From a virus: DNA of 39,932 nucleotides. Both the position numbers and the translations under genes were made by a program. A model generated the notes under the pieces. That model was not told the origin of the DNA, did not search any database, and saw only the letters and a list, made by a program, of their open reading frames with translations. The DNA lies in the IMG/VR virus record IMGVR_UViG_3300044638_001389, positions 1 through 39,932 of that record; one strand, given 5' to 3'. Shown piece by piece: positions 283-6,638 of the stretch (the stretch's first letter is position 1; each line of letters opens with the position of its first letter).

Positions 283-330
283 AGTCTGCCGACAGAACTG
301 TAGACTGGTCATGCTGTCTGTAGGTACTGT

Positions 331-366
331 CTGCCCACCGAAATAAAAACAGAACGGTGGGGGCAG
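331..366. other. GC-rich inverted repeat CCCACCG/CGGTGGG
   Basis: CCCACCG (334-340) pairs with CGGTGGG (355-361). After a 2-nt bulge, CTG (331-333) pairs with CAG (364-366). The loop is a 14-nt A-rich stretch. It stands out from the A/T-rich surroundings and overlaps the cluster of GTCTG motifs. Confidence 0.4.
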
Positions 367-434
367 TCTAATAAATTAATGTCTACTACTAAAGACTGCT
401 GGCGTAGTCTGTTGTTCTGTCATGGATTCCCCTC

Positions 435-459
435 TCGTCAAGCAAAGTACGCTTGACGA
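435..459. other. 9-bp hairpin in early leader
   Basis: TCGTCAAGC (435-443) and GCTTGACGA (451-459) form a perfect 9-bp stem with a 7-nt loop. It sits about 70 nt upstream of the first early start codon, so it would be in the 5' leader if transcription begins upstream. It could stabilise the leader or bind a regulator. Confidence 0.45.
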
Positions 460-529
460 TTCACTCCTCCATGTCGGTCTGATATTTAAGGAATGTTTCC
501 TTGTGTTATCTGTTGAAAGGTCGTTTGAA

Positions 530-964
530 ATGTTTAGATTGCTGATTACTGGTTCACGCTCTTGGGTTGATACTCAGGCTATCCGTGACGAGTTCGATAT
601 AGTGCAAGCGCATGAAGGTTCTAATGTTGTCCTAGTCAGTGGCAACTGCCCCCGTGGGGCAGACAAACAGTGCGAAGACATCGCGCTTGAGTATGGCTGG
701 TCTGTAGAACTTCACCCTCTCGCTTGGAAAGGCCAAGACGGGCTAGGTGAGTACAACCCTCGCGCTGGTTTCGAGCGCAACAAGTTAATGGTAGACCTCG
801 GTGCGGACTTCGTGCTCGCGTTCGTGATGAACCAATCTGGTGGTGCTATGAATACAGTGGGCCATTCCCGCAGTGCTGGTATCCCTACCAAGATTATCAA
901 TCGGACCACGCCTATCGTGAAAGACTGGTTGATGCCTTACACCAACCAGAAGGTCAAGGCTTAA
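530..964 (+). CDS. SLOG-fold protein, DUF2493/YspA-like
   Basis: A 144-aa protein. The N-terminus carries LITGSRSW and is followed by SGNCPRGADKQCEDIALEYG, the glycine-rich nucleotide-ligand loop and the G-x-GAD block typical of the DUF2493/YspA branch of the SLOG (DprA/LOG-like Rossmann) superfamily. Members are thought to bind or hydrolyse nucleotide-derived ligands; a role in the phage is unknown. The start at 530 is preferred over the in-frame codon at 422 because GAAAGG lies 9 nt upstream and the family similarity begins there. It is the first gene of the rightward arm, so it is probably expressed immediately early. It is followed by a GC-rich hairpin. Confidence 0.85.
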   Translation: MFRLLITGSRSWVDTQAIRDEFDIVQAHEGSNVVLVSGNCPRGADKQCEDIALEYGWSVELHPLAWKGQDGLGEYNPRAGFERNKLMVDLGADFVLAFVMNQSGGAMNTVGHSRSAGIPTKIINRTTPIVKDWLMPYTNQKVKA

Positions 965-976
965 AAGATACAGGCT

Positions 977-1005
977 AACATGCCCCCAAAATGCGGGGGC
1001 ATGTT
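977..1005 (+). terminator. GC-rich hairpin without U-tract after first early gene
   Basis: AACATGCCCCC (977-987) pairs perfectly with GGGGGCATGTT (995-1005) over a 7-nt loop. No T-run follows; the next bases are GGTCTGGTCC. U-less terminators are reported in Actinobacteria, so partial termination is possible. An RNA-processing or 3'-stabilising hairpin is the alternative. Confidence 0.5.
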
Positions 1006-1047
1006 GGTCTGGTCCTTGTTGGTTTCCTACTATGAAAGGTTGTAAGT

Positions 1048-1194
1048 ATGATAAAAGTATCACCACGCCTTGCTATCTATGAGATAGTTAAGGCTGTAGA
1101 ACTAGGCGACATCACCCGCTATCAGGCCAACGAGTACATCATGGATGTACTCATGAACATACCACCAATGCAAGAAACAGAGGAGAACTCATGA
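1048..1194 (+). CDS. Small hypothetical protein (48 aa)
   Basis: A 48-aa ORF (MIKVSPRLAIYEIVKAVELG...) with a good ribosome site, GAAAGG 8 nt before ATG. The stop overlaps the next start (ATGA). It is predicted to be largely helical, with SPRLAIYEIVKAVELGDITRYQANEYI resembling a short helix-turn-helix-like pair of helices; I could not assign a family. It opens a tightly packed set of four small genes with 4-8 nt overlaps, a sign of translational coupling. Confidence 0.65.
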   Translation: MIKVSPRLAIYEIVKAVELGDITRYQANEYIMDVLMNIPPMQETEENS

Positions 1195-1349
1195 CACCAG
1201 AAGACCACAAGAAAATGCTACGCCGTGCCATGTCCGATGACGGACTGATGGCACGGATAATGTCAGAAGCACCAGACAACAGCAAAACTATATACGAACA
1301 ACCAATAAGCGGATGGACACTAATATGGGAAAGGAAAGATGATGAGTGA
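1191..1349 (+). CDS. Small hypothetical protein (52 aa)
   Basis: A 52-aa ORF whose ATG overlaps the upstream stop (ATGA at 1191), with AGAGGAGAACTC just ahead as a ribosome site. The product begins MTPEDHKKMLRRAMSDDGLM and ends with WTLIWERKDDE. It has no recognised motif. It overlaps the next gene by 8 nt, consistent with a co-translated early cluster. Confidence 0.65.
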   Translation: MTPEDHKKMLRRAMSDDGLMARIMSEAPDNSKTIYEQPISGWTLIWERKDDE

Positions 1350-1494
1350 ATACACATGCGTGGAATGCAAGTCCAAATACAGATGGCTCGGTGACAATAT
1401 GGTAGCACTACCAGACAATGAATACATATGTCTATACTGCTACTACGGAGACCAAGAAAGAATGTGGACAACAGAATGGGAGTTAACAAAATGA
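1342..1494 (+). CDS. Small CxxC-CxxC zinc-ribbon protein (50 aa)
   Basis: A 50-aa ORF beginning MSEYTCVECKSKYRW and containing CLYC near residues 30-33. The two CxxC knuckles, about 20 residues apart, predict a single-metal zinc ribbon. GGAAAG precedes the ATG at 1342. The stop overlaps the next start (ATGA at 1491). The next gene also begins MSEY and has paired CxxC motifs, so the two may be related. Such ribbons often act as small protein- or nucleic-acid-binding modifiers of host machinery; the function here is unknown. Confidence 0.65.
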   Translation: MSEYTCVECKSKYRWLGDNMVALPDNEYICLYCYYGDQERMWTTEWELTK

Positions 1495-2024
1495 GTGAAT
1501 ACGCACAATCTCAGGGCATATCAGTATCCAATACATGTTATGACTGCGCCCTAGTCAGTGAGTATAGTCCAGAATACAGGTGCATTGAATGCACCGAAGA
1601 ACAAGAAGGACGAGATGATGCCATAGCCTACGAGATAGTAGACAGAGGCAACATGCAATACAAACATCAGTGGTCACGCACCGATGAACAACCAAGCGGT
1701 AGTGACTGGACTGCATCAGAAACATACATCAAGCCCCAATCATGGGTTGCTAAGATGACAGAAAAATGGGACGATGACAACCCATTCCACCTCATTGAAC
1801 TATCAGTTCAATTCGAGAAGCCAGAAGAAGATTACCTAACACGACATGAGTACAGCCCACCAATAGTGCAACTCGTTGACGGAGGAGTGCTAGATAATCT
1901 ATGGGAACTAGATGATTACACACAGTACAAGCGTGAGACACAGTGCCAATGGTGCAACCTGCTCACACCCAAAATGTTCAATGACTGCCAAGTCTGCGAC
2001 AAACCTTTAGAGAACAATCTCTGA
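1491..2024 (+). CDS. Cysteine-rich protein with two CxxC pairs
   Basis: A 177-aa acidic protein. An N-terminal ribbon has C16/C19 and C31/C34, and a C-terminal ribbon has C152/C155 and C166/C169 (CQWC ... CQVC). The middle (about 40-150) is rich in W, D, E and Y. GGGAG lies 8 nt before the ATG at 1491, preferred over an in-frame codon at 1428 that would run through the preceding gene. The two likely zinc sites at either end suggest a scaffold or adaptor protein. No family recognised. Confidence 0.75.
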   Translation: MSEYAQSQGISVSNTCYDCALVSEYSPEYRCIECTEEQEGRDDAIAYEIVDRGNMQYKHQWSRTDEQPSGSDWTASETYIKPQSWVAKMTEKWDDDNPFHLIELSVQFEKPEEDYLTRHEYSPPIVQLVDGGVLDNLWELDDYTQYKRETQCQWCNLLTPKMFNDCQVCDKPLENNL

Positions 2025-2026
2025 AG

Positions 2027-2062
2027 CAGGGTTCCCCTGTCCTTCTGACAGGGGTAACCCTG
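2027..2062 (+). terminator. 15-bp hairpin with single bulge, U-less
   Basis: CAGGGTTCCCCTGTC (2027-2041) pairs with GACAGGGGTAACCCTG (2047-2062), with one T bulged at 2055 and a 5-nt loop. It directly follows the stop at 2024 and precedes the strong ribosome site of the gene at 2090. No T-run follows. It is a possible attenuator or RNA-processing site separating the small-gene cluster from the next gene. Confidence 0.5.
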
Positions 2063-2089
2063 ACCAACTAACTACAACAAGGAGAAAAC

Positions 2090-2446
2090 ATGTTACAAAA
2101 TACACTAACAGTTAGTGGCTCAATCAAAGCGTTCACAGACAAGAGCCTCAAGACTAACGACTACGGCACGCAACTACTAGGCTGGATTAGCCAGCGAGAT
2201 GTTGCACGCATGAGCAACGGAGATGCAAGCGGTAACCCACGATACATCGTAGGTGTAGGCTTCAAAGCAACAGACCCAGCAATCATTGCTGAGTTAGTAG
2301 CACTAGACAATGCCCGACAAGGCACAGCAGAATCAGCACCAGTCACACTGACAGGACGCTTAACCCAATGGGTTGCTAAGTCCAAGACAGGCGGAGCAGA
2401 CGAGTTCCGCTACCAACTAGAAGTGCTCGACATCGAGCAAGTCTGA
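2090..2446 (+). CDS. Small beta-rich protein, possible OB-fold/ssDNA-binding
   Basis: A 118-aa protein with AAGGAG 6 nt before ATG. Alternating strands (LTVSGSIKAFTD, TQLLGWISQ, RYIVGVGFKA, VTLTGRLTQWVAK, FRYQLEVLDIEQV) suggest a compact beta-barrel. The VSGSI and VTLTGRL strands resemble OB-fold single-stranded DNA binding proteins, which would fit an early gene upstream of replication functions. The match is from general pattern only. It is flanked on both sides by GC-rich hairpins, so it may be a separately controlled, highly expressed monocistron. Confidence 0.7.
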   Translation: MLQNTLTVSGSIKAFTDKSLKTNDYGTQLLGWISQRDVARMSNGDASGNPRYIVGVGFKATDPAIIAELVALDNARQGTAESAPVTLTGRLTQWVAKSKTGGADEFRYQLEVLDIEQV

Positions 2447-2452
2447 TTAGAT

Positions 2453-2481
2453 AGAGGCAGGGACTAACCATCCCTGCCTCT
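2453..2481 (+). terminator. Perfect 11-bp hairpin after gene at 2090
   Basis: AGAGGCAGGGA (2453-2463) pairs perfectly with TCCCTGCCTCT (2471-2481) over a 7-nt loop, 7 nt after the stop codon. There is no U-tract (next bases CTTCAG). Placement right behind a gene supports a terminator or 3'-end-protecting hairpin. The following 80 nt up to the next start hold nothing recognisable beyond A/T-rich sequence. Confidence 0.55.
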
Positions 2482-2564
2482 CTTCAGTAACCCAATAAAA
2501 GTAATCGGCAGCAATGCACAAGTTTTATATTTATACACACTACATACAAGAGAGAGAGAACATT

Positions 2565-2738
2565 ATGTATCTATCACAAGGTGATATAATTGCTATAACT
2601 ATAGCGTTAGGTACTAGCCTAACACTAATAATTATTATGTTGTATGCTAACATACAACTGCTGAATGAGAATAGATTCCTCAAGACTAGACTACGGGCAT
2701 GGCGCAAGTCATTCCAAACTAACAATGAGCAAGCATAA
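2565..2738 (+). CDS. Small single-pass membrane protein (57 aa)
   Basis: A 57-aa protein starting MYLSQGD. A hydrophobic helix spans residues about 8-27 (IAITIALGTSLTLIIIMLYA) and is followed by a charged, coiled-coil-prone tail (LLNENRFLKTRLRAWRK). The start at 2565 follows GAGAGAG; an upstream in-frame ATG at 2514 has no ribosome site and would add a non-hydrophobic stretch. Small early membrane proteins in phages often mediate superinfection exclusion or host takeover, but nothing here identifies which. Confidence 0.6.
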   Translation: MYLSQGDIIAITIALGTSLTLIIIMLYANIQLLNENRFLKTRLRAWRKSFQTNNEQA

Positions 2739-2847
2739 ACATCATTGGTTATGCAGCGATACACCAGGACAATACTATTGTAATGACTGCACTGCACTAG
2801 GATGGTGGAGTCAGATGTTTAGAAAGGTAATAACAAATGAGTTATGA
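2725..2847 (+). CDS. Tiny His/Cys-rich protein (40 aa)
   Basis: A 40-aa ORF beginning MSKHKHHWLCSD and containing a later CNDC, giving potential zinc ligands (three His, three Cys). It overlaps the preceding gene by 14 nt and the next by 11 nt, with only a weak ribosome site, so coupled translation is assumed. It is small and without homology evidence, but fits the pattern of zinc-knuckle genes in this cluster. Confidence 0.45.
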   Translation: MSKHKHHWLCSDTPGQYYCNDCTALGWWSQMFRKVITNEL

Positions 2848-2968
2848 ACCACCATTAGAAGATGACACTGCACTAGATAAAGATGGAGACTGCGAGTACT
2901 GCGGTAACTACGTGATAGAATGTACCTGTAACAGTGAACCTGACCGCATGTATGGGAGCGAAGACTAA
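2837..2968 (+). CDS. Tiny acidic zinc-knuckle protein (43 aa)
   Basis: A 43-aa ORF (MSYEPPLEDDTALDKDGDCE...) with CEYC and CTC motifs that could bind one zinc. GAAAGG lies 9 nt before the ATG, inside the end of the preceding gene. The protein is strongly acidic. The stop at 2968 is followed at once by the ribosome site (AAGGAG) of the transglycosylase-like gene. Confidence 0.55.
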   Translation: MSYEPPLEDDTALDKDGDCEYCGNYVIECTCNSEPDRMYGSED

Positions 2969-2978
2969 GGAGATAGCA

Positions 2979-3407
2979 ATGAGTAAGATAAGAAAATGGA
3001 TTGCTGTTGGTAGCAGTATACTGCTGACACTAACAACTCTTGTAGGTTTACCATTAAAGTATTACTCGCAGCATGTCAATGACCTATGCTATAACGAGCA
3101 ACGATTACCTAAAGTATGGACACCATATGCAGCCAAGATGTATGCTCTGTCATACATGAAGATGTGGTACCCCGATTGGGGTAGAGGTGAACATAAAGCA
3201 CTGATGAAACTATGGGGTAAAGAGTCAGCATGGAAACATGATGCAGACAATCCTAACTCAACAGCCTATGGCATAGCACAAGTACTGGGTACTAAGCCTG
3301 GTACCCCAGCCCCGCAACAAGTTGCGCGGGGGCTGGAGTATGTAGTACATAGGTATGATAAGCCATCAATTGCGTGGTCACATTGGAGAAAACATGGCTG
3401 GTATTAG
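2979..3407 (+). CDS. Membrane-anchored lytic-transglycosylase-like protein
   Basis: A 142-aa protein with an N-terminal hydrophobic helix (about residues 7-27) after KIRKW, giving a membrane anchor or signal peptide. It carries a C-terminal domain of the type found in Gram-positive aggregation-promoting factors and related SLT-like transglycosylases: LWGKESAW (probable catalytic E82), STAYGIAQVLG, ARGLEYVVHRYD and the terminal AWSHWRKHGWY. The domain would cleave peptidoglycan outside the membrane. AAGGAG 6 nt upstream fixes the start at 2979. It lies in the early arm, far from the late lysis cassette, which is unusual. A GC-rich hairpin (3306-3336) lies inside the coding sequence. Confidence 0.8.
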   Translation: MSKIRKWIAVGSSILLTLTTLVGLPLKYYSQHVNDLCYNEQRLPKVWTPYAAKMYALSYMKMWYPDWGRGEHKALMKLWGKESAWKHDADNPNSTAYGIAQVLGTKPGTPAPQQVARGLEYVVHRYDKPSIAWSHWRKHGWY

Positions 3408-3558
3408 TTACATAGTACAAGTAGAGATAGAAGTAGAAGCAGATAACGATGATGCTGCACTCTTTTGGGTGCAGGATGCAGTAACTATGTATGGGGCAAC
3501 CATGTCTATACATAGATGGATAGATACACGACTAAACAAGGGAGAAGCAAGTGAATAA
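3394..3558 (+). CDS. Small hypothetical protein (54 aa)
   Basis: A 54-aa ORF beginning MAGISYIVQVEIEVEADNDD, with GGAG 5 nt upstream. It overlaps the previous gene by 14 nt and the next by 8 nt. The pattern is a beta-strand ending in 'VEAD' followed by an alanine-containing helix (DDAALFWVQDAV). A similar strand-helix arrangement appears in the products at 5209 and 7919. No function known. Confidence 0.6.
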   Translation: MAGISYIVQVEIEVEADNDDAALFWVQDAVTMYGATMSIHRWIDTRLNKGEASE

Positions 3559-4090
3559 AACCATAATCAAATCAAGAATAGAACAAATCAAAAAACTGTC
3601 TAGTCAAGATGAGCATGGACAGTTTGAGATTGGTACACCTGAACAGCAAAGCGCTGCTAGGTTAGTAGAAGATTTCTATACTAACTTTGACTTGAGTAAA
3701 GAAACAAGTGAAGATGAACTATCTATCACAACAGCCGCTGTTATACTGGCACTCAAAGATATTCAAGTGCGTGACTATGCACTAGGAATGTATGACCCAG
3801 CAGAAGAGAAGGCTAGACTATGCTTTGAGTTCTTAACAAAGCATGCACCTAGCAAGTACATTGCTGCACCTACTACATTGCTTGCTCTTACATACTATGA
3901 GAAGCATCAAGATGGTAAAGCAGATGAAGCATTGAAACCAGCACTAGCACAAGGCTATTCATTGGCAACACTATTAAGCCGAGTGTTCCAAACTAACTGG
4001 CCTGTAGGTGCATTCAATAGCATGCGCTTGGAACTACATCCACGCGTAAAAGCAGGCATATTTGGAGGGACAGATGACAATAGCAACTAA
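3551..4090 (+). CDS. DUF4192-like protein
   Basis: A 179-aa protein initiated at GTG with GGAGAAGCAA directly upstream. The C-terminal half (VRDYALGMY, ARLCFEFLTKHAP, APTTLLALTYYEKHQDGKADEALKPAL and GYSLATLLSRV) resembles the helical repeat-like region of the actinobacterial DUF4192 family, whose function is unknown. It overlaps the next gene by 17 nt. The family assignment is by recall of pattern and is moderate. Confidence 0.65.
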   Translation: MNKTIIKSRIEQIKKLSSQDEHGQFEIGTPEQQSAARLVEDFYTNFDLSKETSEDELSITTAAVILALKDIQVRDYALGMYDPAEEKARLCFEFLTKHAPSKYIAAPTTLLALTYYEKHQDGKADEALKPALAQGYSLATLLSRVFQTNWPVGAFNSMRLELHPRVKAGIFGGTDDNSN

Positions 4091-5066
4091 ACACAAGTCA
4101 GCATGGGTAAGAGGTGGCACTGCAGTTGAGGCTACCTCTGCCCGTGATGCAGCAACACAAGCAGGACTTAACTGGACTGTACGAACAGGTGAACTACAAG
4201 CAGTAGCAACACCACTAAGTATTGATGAGCATGGTGTAACACCAGCCACATACATAGATGTGTATAAGAAGCAGGCTATTATCCGTGAGGATAACAACAC
4301 AGTCATTGGTATTGTTGGCACCAAGTACAAGATGGTGCAGAACATGGAAGTATTCAATGCATTAGATACACTAGTAGACTCAGGTGATGCTCGATATACA
4401 GCAGCAGGTGAGTTCAATGGTGGTGCTAACATCTGGATGCTACTTGAATTACCACAAGGTGTAGAGGTAGCCAATGACCCACATGCTGCGTTCCTATTGG
4501 TTAAGACATCACATGATGGCTCATCATCAGTAGTAATTAAGCCAGTCATTGAGCGTTTGTTCTGCGCTAATCAAATCAATGGTTTGATTAGTAACAGTGG
4601 TAAAAAGTACAATGAGTACACATACCGCATGACACACACAACTAATCAAGAACTGTCTATCAAAGACATCCGTAACATTACTAACCTAACATACACTGCT
4701 ATAGCAGACTATCAATTGGTTGCTAACAATCTGTTACGCAAACCAATGACACGACAAGAAGCAGTTAACTTCTTCAAAAGAGTATGGCCTTTACCTACTA
4801 TAGTAGAAGACAAGCCATACGATATGCTAACTAGAGGTGAGCGTAAGCAACAGACTATAGCAAAGGATGCCCGTGCTAGTGCATGGGCTATCTACTCAGA
4901 GTCAGAGACACAAGAAAACATCAGAGGCACAGCCTTCGGTGCATGGCATGCAGTAGTAGAACATGCTGACCACTACGCTACGGGTGGCGCGTCTCGCCTT
5001 GCCGCGGCCACCCTAAGTGGACGCAATGATAAGATAAAGACAAGGGCTTTATCTCTGTTAGTATAG
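4074..5066 (+). CDS. DUF932 (TIGR03299-like) phage/plasmid protein
   Basis: A 330-aa protein. The central stretch VVGTKYKxVQN-like (GIVGTKYKMVQNMEVFNALD), GGANIWMLLELP, LLVKTSHDGSSSVVIKPVIERLFCANQ and the C-terminal helical part match the DUF932 family found in many phages and plasmids; its biochemical role is not established. GGAGGGACAG before the ATG at 4074 supports this start over the in-frame codon at 4062. A GC-rich hairpin (4982-5013) lies near the 3' end of the gene. It is followed by a 142-nt structured leader. Confidence 0.8.
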   Translation: MTIATKHKSAWVRGGTAVEATSARDAATQAGLNWTVRTGELQAVATPLSIDEHGVTPATYIDVYKKQAIIREDNNTVIGIVGTKYKMVQNMEVFNALDTLVDSGDARYTAAGEFNGGANIWMLLELPQGVEVANDPHAAFLLVKTSHDGSSSVVIKPVIERLFCANQINGLISNSGKKYNEYTYRMTHTTNQELSIKDIRNITNLTYTAIADYQLVANNLLRKPMTRQEAVNFFKRVWPLPTIVEDKPYDMLTRGERKQQTIAKDARASAWAIYSESETQENIRGTAFGAWHAVVEHADHYATGGASRLAAATLSGRNDKIKTRALSLLV

Positions 5067-5081
5067 TATTCCGTATGCATA

Positions 5082-5111
5082 CTGCCTAGGCAGCGATAGC
5101 GCGGAAAGCGC
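5082..5111 (+). other. 12-bp perfect palindrome plus small hairpin in leader
   Basis: CTGCCTAGGCAG (5082-5093) is a perfect palindrome. It is followed by GCGC-GGAAA-GCGC (5099-5102/5108-5111), a short hairpin. Both lie in the 142-nt gap between the DUF932 gene and the next start. The palindrome could be an operator for a promoter in this gap (TATATAAG at about 5139-5146 is a possible -10 region). Evidence is symmetry only. Confidence 0.35.
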
Positions 5112-5153
5112 AGAACTTATATCGTTAATCTCTTTTCTATATAAGGGACACCT

Positions 5154-5188
5154 CACTGGGTTGCTCCGCCAGTGGCGAACACGGAGCA
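5154..5188 (+). promoter_or_regulatory. Predicted H-type RNA pseudoknot in 5' leader
   Basis: Stem 1 pairs CACTGG (5154-5159) with CCAGTG (5169-5174). Seven bases of its loop, TGCTCCG (5162-5168), pair perfectly with CGGAGCA (5182-5188) as stem 2. The geometry is canonical for an H-type pseudoknot: loop 1 is 2 nt across the 7-bp stem 2, there is no base between the stems, and loop 3 is 7 nt across the 6-bp stem 1. It ends 20 nt before the start codon at 5209 and just upstream of its ribosome site (GAGAGG). It could control translation of that gene through a ligand, a protein or RNA decay. Confidence 0.55.
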
Positions 5189-5208
5189 TCAAACAACGAG
5201 AGGAACAC

Positions 5209-5637
5209 ATGAACACAATCACAATCATGTCAACAGTAGAGGGTACACCTAATGTAACCTATACTGAAAGCGAAGTACTACGCTACATTGACAAAGCAAA
5301 GGGAATAGATGACCTTAACACCTTGCTCAACCAGCAATACCAAACTATCCGTAGTATTAAAGAGAACGTCCGTGACTTCTTTAGTGAAGTTGAATGGGAA
5401 GACGGTGAGCAAACAGTCACTAAGTCTGATGTCAATGAGTTACTCGAACGCATTGGCTCACACAAACTTACATCAAGATATGGTGGTACATTTACAATCA
5501 CTGGTACCTTCCAAGTAGAAGCAGAAGATGCAGATGAAGCAGAGTCTATGTTTGTAGACAATGTAGATGTATCGTTCAATGATGGTGATTACACCATTGA
5601 CCAGACAGAAGTTAATGATGTAGAAGAGGATTACTAA
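5209..5637 (+). CDS. Acidic hypothetical protein (142 aa)
   Basis: A 142-aa, strongly acidic protein. The N-terminal half (YTESEVLRYIDKAKGIDDLNTLLNQ) is helical, and the C-terminal half has strands FTITGTFQVEAED and a helix DADEAESMFVDNV, an arrangement echoed in the products at 3394 and 7919. GAGAGG 6 nt before the ATG at 5209 sets the start. The leader contains a predicted pseudoknot (5154-5188). The stop overlaps the next start by one base. No family recognised. Confidence 0.7.
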   Translation: MNTITIMSTVEGTPNVTYTESEVLRYIDKAKGIDDLNTLLNQQYQTIRSIKENVRDFFSEVEWEDGEQTVTKSDVNELLERIGSHKLTSRYGGTFTITGTFQVEAEDADEAESMFVDNVDVSFNDGDYTIDQTEVNDVEEDY

Positions 5638-5732
5638 TGAGTAAAGAACTAGAAGATAAACTAAAACAGGCTTCTAAAGAAGCACAAGTATTACTAGATA
5701 AACTGCTAGAAGATATAGAAGAAGACAACTAA
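5637..5732 (+). CDS. 31-aa acidic coiled-coil peptide
   Basis: A 31-aa ORF (MSKELEDKLKQASKEAQVLL...) with heptad-like leucines, ending EDIEEDN. TAATG links it to the upstream stop, and AGAGGA lies about 8 nt upstream. It is very short, but the coupling and strong amphipathic helix favour real translation. It may be a small inhibitor or partner of the preceding protein. Confidence 0.45.
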   Translation: MSKELEDKLKQASKEAQVLLDKLLEDIEEDN

Positions 5733-5793
5733 ACTCGGCGCAACACGCCAGCATCATCATGCATAGTCCGTCACACCATGCTATGATGAGAGC

Positions 5794-5863
5794 AGGTTAG
5801 AGGTAGCAGGGTTTTGGTTCTCTCCTTGTTCCTGCTCCTCTAATCTACTTAACAAGGGAGAAC
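5794..5863 (+). promoter_or_regulatory. Bistable RNA switch over the nuclease ribosome site
   Basis: Two long helices compete. Helix A pairs 5794-5810 with 5831-5846 (16 pairs, one bulged T at 5804, one G:U) and leaves the ribosome site free. Helix B pairs 5817-5830, which lies inside the 20-nt loop of helix A, with 5851-5863, the ribosome-site region AACAAGGGAGAAC (13 pairs, one bulged T at 5823). Helix B fully buries AAGGGAG just before the ATG at 5865. With only 4 nt between 5846 and 5851 the two cannot coexist as a pseudoknot, so they are alternatives. The trigger is unknown. Confidence 0.6.
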
Positions 5864-5864
5864 T

Positions 5865-6638
5865 ATGACAGTAGAAATAACAAGAGATAGATACGGTAGA
5901 CCTATGGTAGTGCCACCTAAGGGTGGCAAAGCAGTACCATACACACGCACTACTACAGTTGCAGGTTCATTAGATGATGGCACTGCATTAGTAGCATGGA
6001 AGTTACGCATGGCTGCAGCAGGATTAACATTGCGTCCTGACCTACTGTTGGCTGCAAGTGCAGCGAGAGACAACAAGTTAGAGATGGATAAGTTAGTTGA
6101 AGATGCAATGGAAGCAGCAGGTGCAACAGCACAGGCTACTATAGGTACAGCCATACACACACTGACAGAAAAGCACGACAAAGGTGAAGACCTTGGCGTG
6201 ATACCAGAAGATTATGTTGCAGACATACAGGCGTATGCTGATGCAACTAAACACTTTAACAATGTATTCATTGAACAGTTTTGTGTGCTAGATAAGTACA
6301 AGATTGCTGGCACACCTGACCGCATAGTTGAATACAAAGGTGAGTTGTTTATCTCTGACCTAAAGACAGGCAGTATCTCGTATCCAAACAAGATTGCTAT
6401 GCAGTTAGCCGTGTATGCGCACGGCCTGCCGTATGACCCTGCCACGGCAGTCCGTGGTAGTTGGGGTGGTGTCAACCAAGATAAGGGAATCATTGTCCAT
6501 CTACCAGCAGGTAGTGGTAAATGTGAACTGCATTTCGTTGACATCAAACAAGGTTGGAAAGGTATAGAGTTAGCAATGAAAGTCCGTACCTTCAGAGATG
6601 GAAAAAAATCCCTAGTAACATCTATTCAAGGAGAATAA
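5865..6638 (+). CDS. RecB/Cas4-like PD-(D/E)XK exonuclease
   Basis: A 257-aa protein. IGTAIHTLTEKHDKG (about 93-107) carries the early His of the RecB-nuclease fold, AGTPDRIV (148-154) has D152, ISDLKTG (163-169) has D165 and K167, and MQLAVYA (179-185) gives the Q-x3-Y motif IV. This is the full PD-(D/E)XK set of Cas4/RecB-like phage exonucleases, which process DNA ends in recombination and repair. It is followed by a zinc-site protein, a RecA/DnaB-like ATPase and a resolvase-like gene, giving a replication/recombination block. AAGGGAG supports the start at 5865, and that site is embedded in a predicted RNA switch. Tandem GCCGT/ACGGC hairpins lie inside the gene at 6408-6457. Confidence 0.85.
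   Translation: MTVEITRDRYGRPMVVPPKGGKAVPYTRTTTVAGSLDDGTALVAWKLRMAAAGLTLRPDLLLAASAARDNKLEMDKLVEDAMEAAGATAQATIGTAIHTLTEKHDKGEDLGVIPEDYVADIQAYADATKHFNNVFIEQFCVLDKYKIAGTPDRIVEYKGELFISDLKTGSISYPNKIAMQLAVYAHGLPYDPATAVRGSWGGVNQDKGIIVHLPAGSGKCELHFVDIKQGWKGIELAMKVRTFRDGKKSLVTSIQGE

Follow-up and report, generated by a model that had tools for sequence, protein, structure and literature searches.

The window analysed here, the whole 39,932 nt of IMG/VR virus record IMGVR_UViG_3300044638_001389, carries an intergenic RNA element on its plus strand, between a DUF932 gene and a gene for a 142-amino-acid acidic protein. An earlier note had described a canonical H-type pseudoknot at 5154–5188, which is the 3′ half of the element; the full conserved unit covers some 80 nt of the window (5109–5188), with its parts in the order CGC, hairpin P1, S1, GU, S2a, S1′, GCG, NACA and S2b:

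5069–5106, plus strand: upstream hairpin module with outer helix TTCCG/CGGAA and internal loop TATGCATAC / GCGATAGCG; a variable partner, outside the core
5109–5111, plus strand: 5′ strand of helix P0 (CGC), pairing with 5175–5177; within the covariance-model match
5116–5145, plus strand: hairpin P1 (CTTATAT at 5116–5122, ATATAAG at 5139–5145); sequence free, structure kept
5146–5153, plus strand: linker between P1 and S1 (3–9 nt in other copies)
5154–5159, plus strand: 5′ strand of S1 (CACTGG)
5160–5161, plus strand: loop L1 (GU), present in every accepted copy
5162–5168, plus strand: 5′ strand of the pseudoknot helix S2 (TGCTCCG), the inner 6 nt being the conserved pairs
5169–5174, plus strand: 3′ strand of S1 (CCAGTG)
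5175–5177, plus strand: 3′ strand of P0 (GCG), covarying with 5109–5111
5178–5181, plus strand: NACA joint, nearly invariant
5182–5188, plus strand: 3′ strand of S2 (CGGAGCA)
5198–5203, plus strand: Shine–Dalgarno sequence (GAGAGG), outside the fold
5209–5637, plus strand: downstream gene (142-amino-acid acidic protein), with no family above the curated cut-off

Within the window, the geometry proposed earlier was recovered: S1 (5154–5159 with 5169–5174, 6 bp) and S2 (5162–5168 with 5182–5188) lie where they had been placed, the loops measure 2, 0 and 7 nt (GT at 5160–5161 as L1, no L2, and GCGAACA at 5175–5181 as L3), and the knot sits in the leader of the acidic-protein gene, ahead of its Shine–Dalgarno sequence and the ATG at 5209. 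Both stems are perfect in the window, S2 with 7 bp, but the outermost pair of S2 (5162–5188) is unpaired in 29 of 52 distinct sequences, so that the conserved S2 is 6 bp. Similarly, a compact pseudoknot of two interlocked helices stands (98% of S1 cells and 92% of S2 cells are paired, with two-sided changes), but a 35-nt H-type fold does not: loop 3, rather than spanning S1 unpaired, pairs through its GCG with the CGC at 5109–5111, making the knot the 3′ part of a three-way-junction-plus-pseudoknot RNA. A covariance model, the check suggested earlier, matched 5109–5188 with 75.8 bits. Folded without pseudoknots, the leader does not stand out (z = −0.86), and so only comparison reveals the structure; a frameshift pseudoknot was ruled out because the element is intergenic.

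The expectation that the match exceeded chance was borne out. The exact 21-mer CACTGGGTTGCTCCGCCAGTG recurs in 42 viral-contig stretches, with flanks far more divergent than the core, and a structure-only scanner found 131 copies in 4.18 Mb of viral sequence (itself gathered with motif patterns) and none in the same sequence reversed. Homologues of the downstream gene occur in 21 viral loci, and all 20 of those with upstream sequence have the element, which is the conservation among relatives on which the earlier claim had been made to depend.

Altogether, some 157 distinct viral copies were collected, comprising 58 distinct 38-nt cores, many further phages coming from scans in which S1, S2, the closing pair, P0 or the ACA joint was left free. 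Across 52 distinct cores, 95.1% of cells were paired (30–45% with partners slid), 12 of the 16 pairs, including all three of P0, showed two-sided changes, and the covariation score was 0.480, compared with 0.134 for shuffled alignments, none of 500 reaching the observed value. In an alignment of 39 full-length representatives, pairing holds for 96.2% of cells, with two-sided changes at 5 of the 6 S1 pairs and 4 of the 7 S2 pairs. The S2 of the window, TGCTCCG/CGGAGCA, is replaced elsewhere by TGTCCCG/CGGGACA, GGTACCG/CGGTACA and others, and nearly every copy has, 5′ of S1, a CGC, an A or T, a P1 hairpin of any sequence and the short linker. P1 spans 14–90 nt among copies, and its segments fold with a mean z of −2.64 (124 distinct sequences). 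The P0 variants CGC/GCG, CAC/GTG, GTA/TAC and GCG/CGC involve covariation at all three pairs, which is firm for CAC/GTG in two close relatives (L268 and L270, covariance-model scores of 61 and 50 bits, from a scan freed from GCG) and weaker for the candidates with GTA/TAC (L269) and GCG/CGC (L274). GCG and CGC change together across relatives, so P0 is a helix. Two further weak candidates (L266 and L267) have the loop TTAAACA and lack P1.

Because the loci were motif-selected, the constancy of GU, CCG/CGG and ACA counts only in part as independent evidence; with GU and CCG/CGG unfixed in one scan, they were still constant in its structured matches, and with ACA unfixed in another, there was one true exception, ACCA in a divergent contig pair (L292/L301). 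This covariation shows, at the level of comparative prediction, a three-way junction of P0, P1 and S1 in which the S1 loop pairs just 3′ of P0 as pseudoknot S2. The 4-nt NACA joint reaches about 35 Å at most, against 39.6 Å for a continuous 9-bp stack of P0 on S1, and cannot span such a straight stack; on this modelled geometry, the helices must bend, unlike in a simple H-type stack.

Carriers of the element appear to be phages of actinobacteria, an assignment drawn from protein similarity. The window terminase is nearest (62% identity) to those of ‘Ca. Planktophila’ phages E7 and F5, both of which have been isolated (PMC10202952), and among other carriers, L248 is similar to Actinomycetia phage DSL-LC01, L253 to Streptomyces phages and L134 to Gordonia phages; the protein comparison for L247 gave no clear host. 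At the sensitivity of the scans used, cellular genomes lack the element: a strict pattern run over 84,980 bacterial and archaeal genomes yielded no structured copy (40 matches in genome contigs, with poor pairing in one or both stems, were attributed to chance), and nor did a scan of 296 Actinomycetota genomes, in which one pattern match compared with six in the reversed control. Eight records of cultured or annotated phages, among them E7, F5, DSL-LC01, FlowerPower, Stella, Gaia and ctYwJ313, likewise gave no copy with the covariance model; its 17.7-bit match in Gordonia phage DalanDe falls within a tail gene and was dismissed as chance, as were the only matches from BLAST of the 39-nt elements against annotated phages, a method too insensitive at such length. 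Since close cultured relatives (E7 and F5) lack it, the element is dispensable. Rfam has no family for the element, either at the gathering score or up to E = 10 (the region's sole match, to HIV-1 SL3 with E = 7.5, is due to chance), and no paper describing it was found in the literature searched, which mostly excluded subscription journals and preprints. Taken together, the comparisons show a conserved and, we predict, cis-acting RNA family of actinophages, about 60–100 nt in length.

The element lies between genes, and its neighbours vary. By heuristic gene finding, the upstream stop codon lies within 60 nt of P0 in 116 of 133 copies, and in 108 of the 130 copies with a downstream gene the fold stops 16–37 nt short of the start codon, leaving the Shine–Dalgarno sequence free. 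Genes on the 3′ side include two unrelated exonuclease families, DUF932 (L115), DUF4192 (L120 and L124) and, as read from sequence, an HTH gene (L065); those on the 5′ side include the DUF932 gene of the window and genes for a single-strand-binding protein (L134) and a DNA methyltransferase (L245). Some copies have no start codon nearby and stand before an intrinsic-terminator-like hairpin (L070, L108 and L236), with convergent genes downstream in L070 and L108. Most records have one copy and some two (L120, L124 and G013), including a tandem pair in the L065 group (L065 and L067); in L065, two complete copies 32 nt apart (3277–3462, minus strand) precede a small HTH-like gene. These arrangements show a portable module that lies between early genes, bordering the next ribosome-binding site on its 5′ side, or within 3′ untranslated regions ahead of terminators.

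That inverted repeats adjoin replication and recombination genes could indicate an operator, origin or recombination site that merely resembles RNA, but we consider this DNA-level reading, already disfavoured, extremely improbable: the covariation fits interlocked RNA helices with G–U pairs and a P1 hairpin of free sequence, and the strand matches that of the upstream gene wherever one was called, with two doubtful exceptions. Likelier, though still unlikely on the whole, is an operator-like site bound by a protein of the phage or the host, with the fold at the edge of the ribosome-binding site recruiting or excluding the 30S subunit or a phage RNA-binding protein and so coordinating early translation. 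The regular distance to the start codon and the near-invariant unpaired GU and ACA would suit such a site, whereas the exposed Shine–Dalgarno sequence, the unrelated genes that follow and the copies before terminators or convergent genes would not, and no common partner gene was identified.

The near-invariant core within variable helices is also typical of aptamers, and tandem copies exist, as might be expected if the junction bound a metabolite that changes during infection. Such a small-ligand riboswitch is quite unlikely, given that a coherent set of regulated genes is absent, that most copies have no Shine–Dalgarno sequence or terminator built into a switch, and that none was found in the cellular genomes scanned. 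The earlier suggestion of a riboswitch or translational repressor site is thus possible yet not the best supported, the element being neither tied to a particular gene nor inclusive of the Shine–Dalgarno sequence. Unrelated neighbours, tandem copies and a free Shine–Dalgarno sequence instead favour a generic role at the mRNA level over a gene-specific ligand switch.

ToxI RNAs, the antitoxins of type III systems, are short pseudoknots, and the free-standing copies before terminators could recall such an RNA decoy or another activity (self-cleavage or an sRNA processing signal). We regard this as very unlikely: the element usually occurs singly rather than as a repeat array, no toxin-like nuclease gene was identified beside it (nor any ToxN-like family among the neighbours scanned, which would be expected next to a tandem pseudoknot array), and no Rfam ribozyme family matches. 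A processive antitermination or pausing element acting on RNA polymerase, in the manner of HK022 put RNA or lambda nut, would be consistent with the early operon position, the one or two copies per genome and the terminators directly downstream in several phages. It too is an improbable reading: read-through in L070 and L108 would enter convergent genes, a terminator is not nearby in most copies, and put RNAs form a V-shaped pair of stem-loops near early promoters, for which a pseudoknot is not reported (PMC9378689), whereas the pseudoknot of the element covaries.

Other structured features surround the element. The module with TATGCATAC followed by GC.ATAGCG was counted in 13 distinct contexts among related loci and in none of the reversed control; in the window it precedes the pseudoknot, and in L074, L075, L077, L081 and L094 it follows it, which points to interchangeable parts of leader RNAs. 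Another hairpin module, with conserved internal loop CCAGCGTAA / GATGCAGG, lies just upstream of P0, or after the pseudoknot in L077; it was seen in 17 distinct contexts (none in the reversed control) and is permuted, with both strand orders represented (L077, L080, L087, L029, L037, L042 and L054, versus L116, L125, L138, L145, L154 and L176). Elsewhere in the window, a strong inverted repeat (GGGTGGC...GCCACCC, 4982–5013) falls within the 3′ end of the DUF932 gene, and a 31-codon acidic open reading frame without a family match (5637–5732) overlaps the stop codon of the acidic-protein gene (TAATG). The intergenic stretch at 5732–5870 folds with a z of −4.31; within it, a long hairpin before an exonuclease gene (5794–5863) has a loop, GTTCTCTCCTTGTT, complementary to the Shine–Dalgarno region AACAAGGGAGAAC, making it a candidate for a second, Shine–Dalgarno-sequestering pseudoknot, and a similar arrangement was found in L052. 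In L274, a 97-kb viral contig, 22 tRNA genes lie within about 6 kb (302–6235), one of them with the divergent element candidate immediately on its 5′ side.

What the element does we infer from a structure that rests on covariation. Of the readings considered, we favour a roadblock to 5′-to-3′ mRNA decay, because the topology equals that of flaviviral exoribonuclease-resistant RNA (xrRNA), and hold it tentatively. The fold would be a mechanical obstacle to host RNase J, or to 5′-end-dependent initiation of decay, with the three-way junction and loop-to-downstream pseudoknot bracing against the nuclease as in xrRNA; phage mRNA 3′ of the element might then survive cleavage upstream or be protected from its 5′ end, and copies in 3′ untranslated regions could leave a stable small RNA. 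RNase J (TIGR00649) scored above the cut-off in 63 of 80 Actinomycetota genomes, and a flaviviral xrRNA has been found to stop bacterial RNase J1 in vitro (PMC5760640). A promoter of consensus type (TTGACA, 17–18 nt, TACTAT) in L178 and L292 sets the predicted transcript 5′ end at P0, which counts for the roadblock, as do the covariation, the generic placement and the bend of the helices. Several observations weigh against it: transcripts of L178 and L292 starting at P0 would have little single strand for entry of a processive nuclease; the near-invariant GU, CCG/CGG and ACA could equally form a ligand or protein pocket; the resemblance to xrRNA is one of topology, with no sequence or model match; and the close cultured relatives E7 and F5 do without the element. 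The more specific proposal, that the element constitutes a class of DNA-phage exoribonuclease-resistant RNAs, convergent in topology with those of flaviviruses and shielding phage mRNA from RNase J in actinobacteria, is correspondingly more doubtful.

Among systems of comparable form, the H-type riboswitches (SAM-II, preQ1-II/III and guanidine-III) are, like the element, compact pseudoknots whose junction nucleotides hardly vary and which lie near a start codon; the element differs in its free Shine–Dalgarno sequence, its additional P0 and P1 and its unrelated neighbours, which form no consistent pathway or regulon, and it matches no Rfam riboswitch model. The leader of T4 gene 32, an autogenous translational operator, is likewise a pseudoknot in a phage mRNA upstream of an early gene, but the element is a three-way junction and the gene after it is not constant. 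HK022 put RNA is also a cis-acting RNA of about 70 nt, with one or two copies per genome in a phage early operon; its two stem-loops contain a triplex, whereas the element is intercistronic and stands beside many different genes. A further likeness is to flaviviral xrRNA (PMC5760640), in which, too, the loop of the 3′ hairpin of a three-way junction pairs just 3′ of the closing helix (the L3:S4 pseudoknot), and which is also viral, sometimes tandem and often in a 3′ untranslated region. In contrast, the element belongs to DNA phages, is mostly intercistronic or in 5′ leaders and has a 3-bp closing helix, and its exonuclease resistance is a prediction. We class the element as a phage cis-acting pseudoknotted RNA and place it neither among the xrRNAs nor in a riboswitch family: an apparently undescribed, widespread and strongly covarying fold found in actinophages from the environment, some of them presumed to infect the abundant freshwater Nanopelagicales, with portable, gene-independent placement. 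Were a protein or ligand to bind it, the element would be a new, directly testable RNA regulator; were it instead to block RNase J, this would explain how phage mRNAs could survive 5′-to-3′ decay, and DNA phages would share an RNA trick with flaviviruses.
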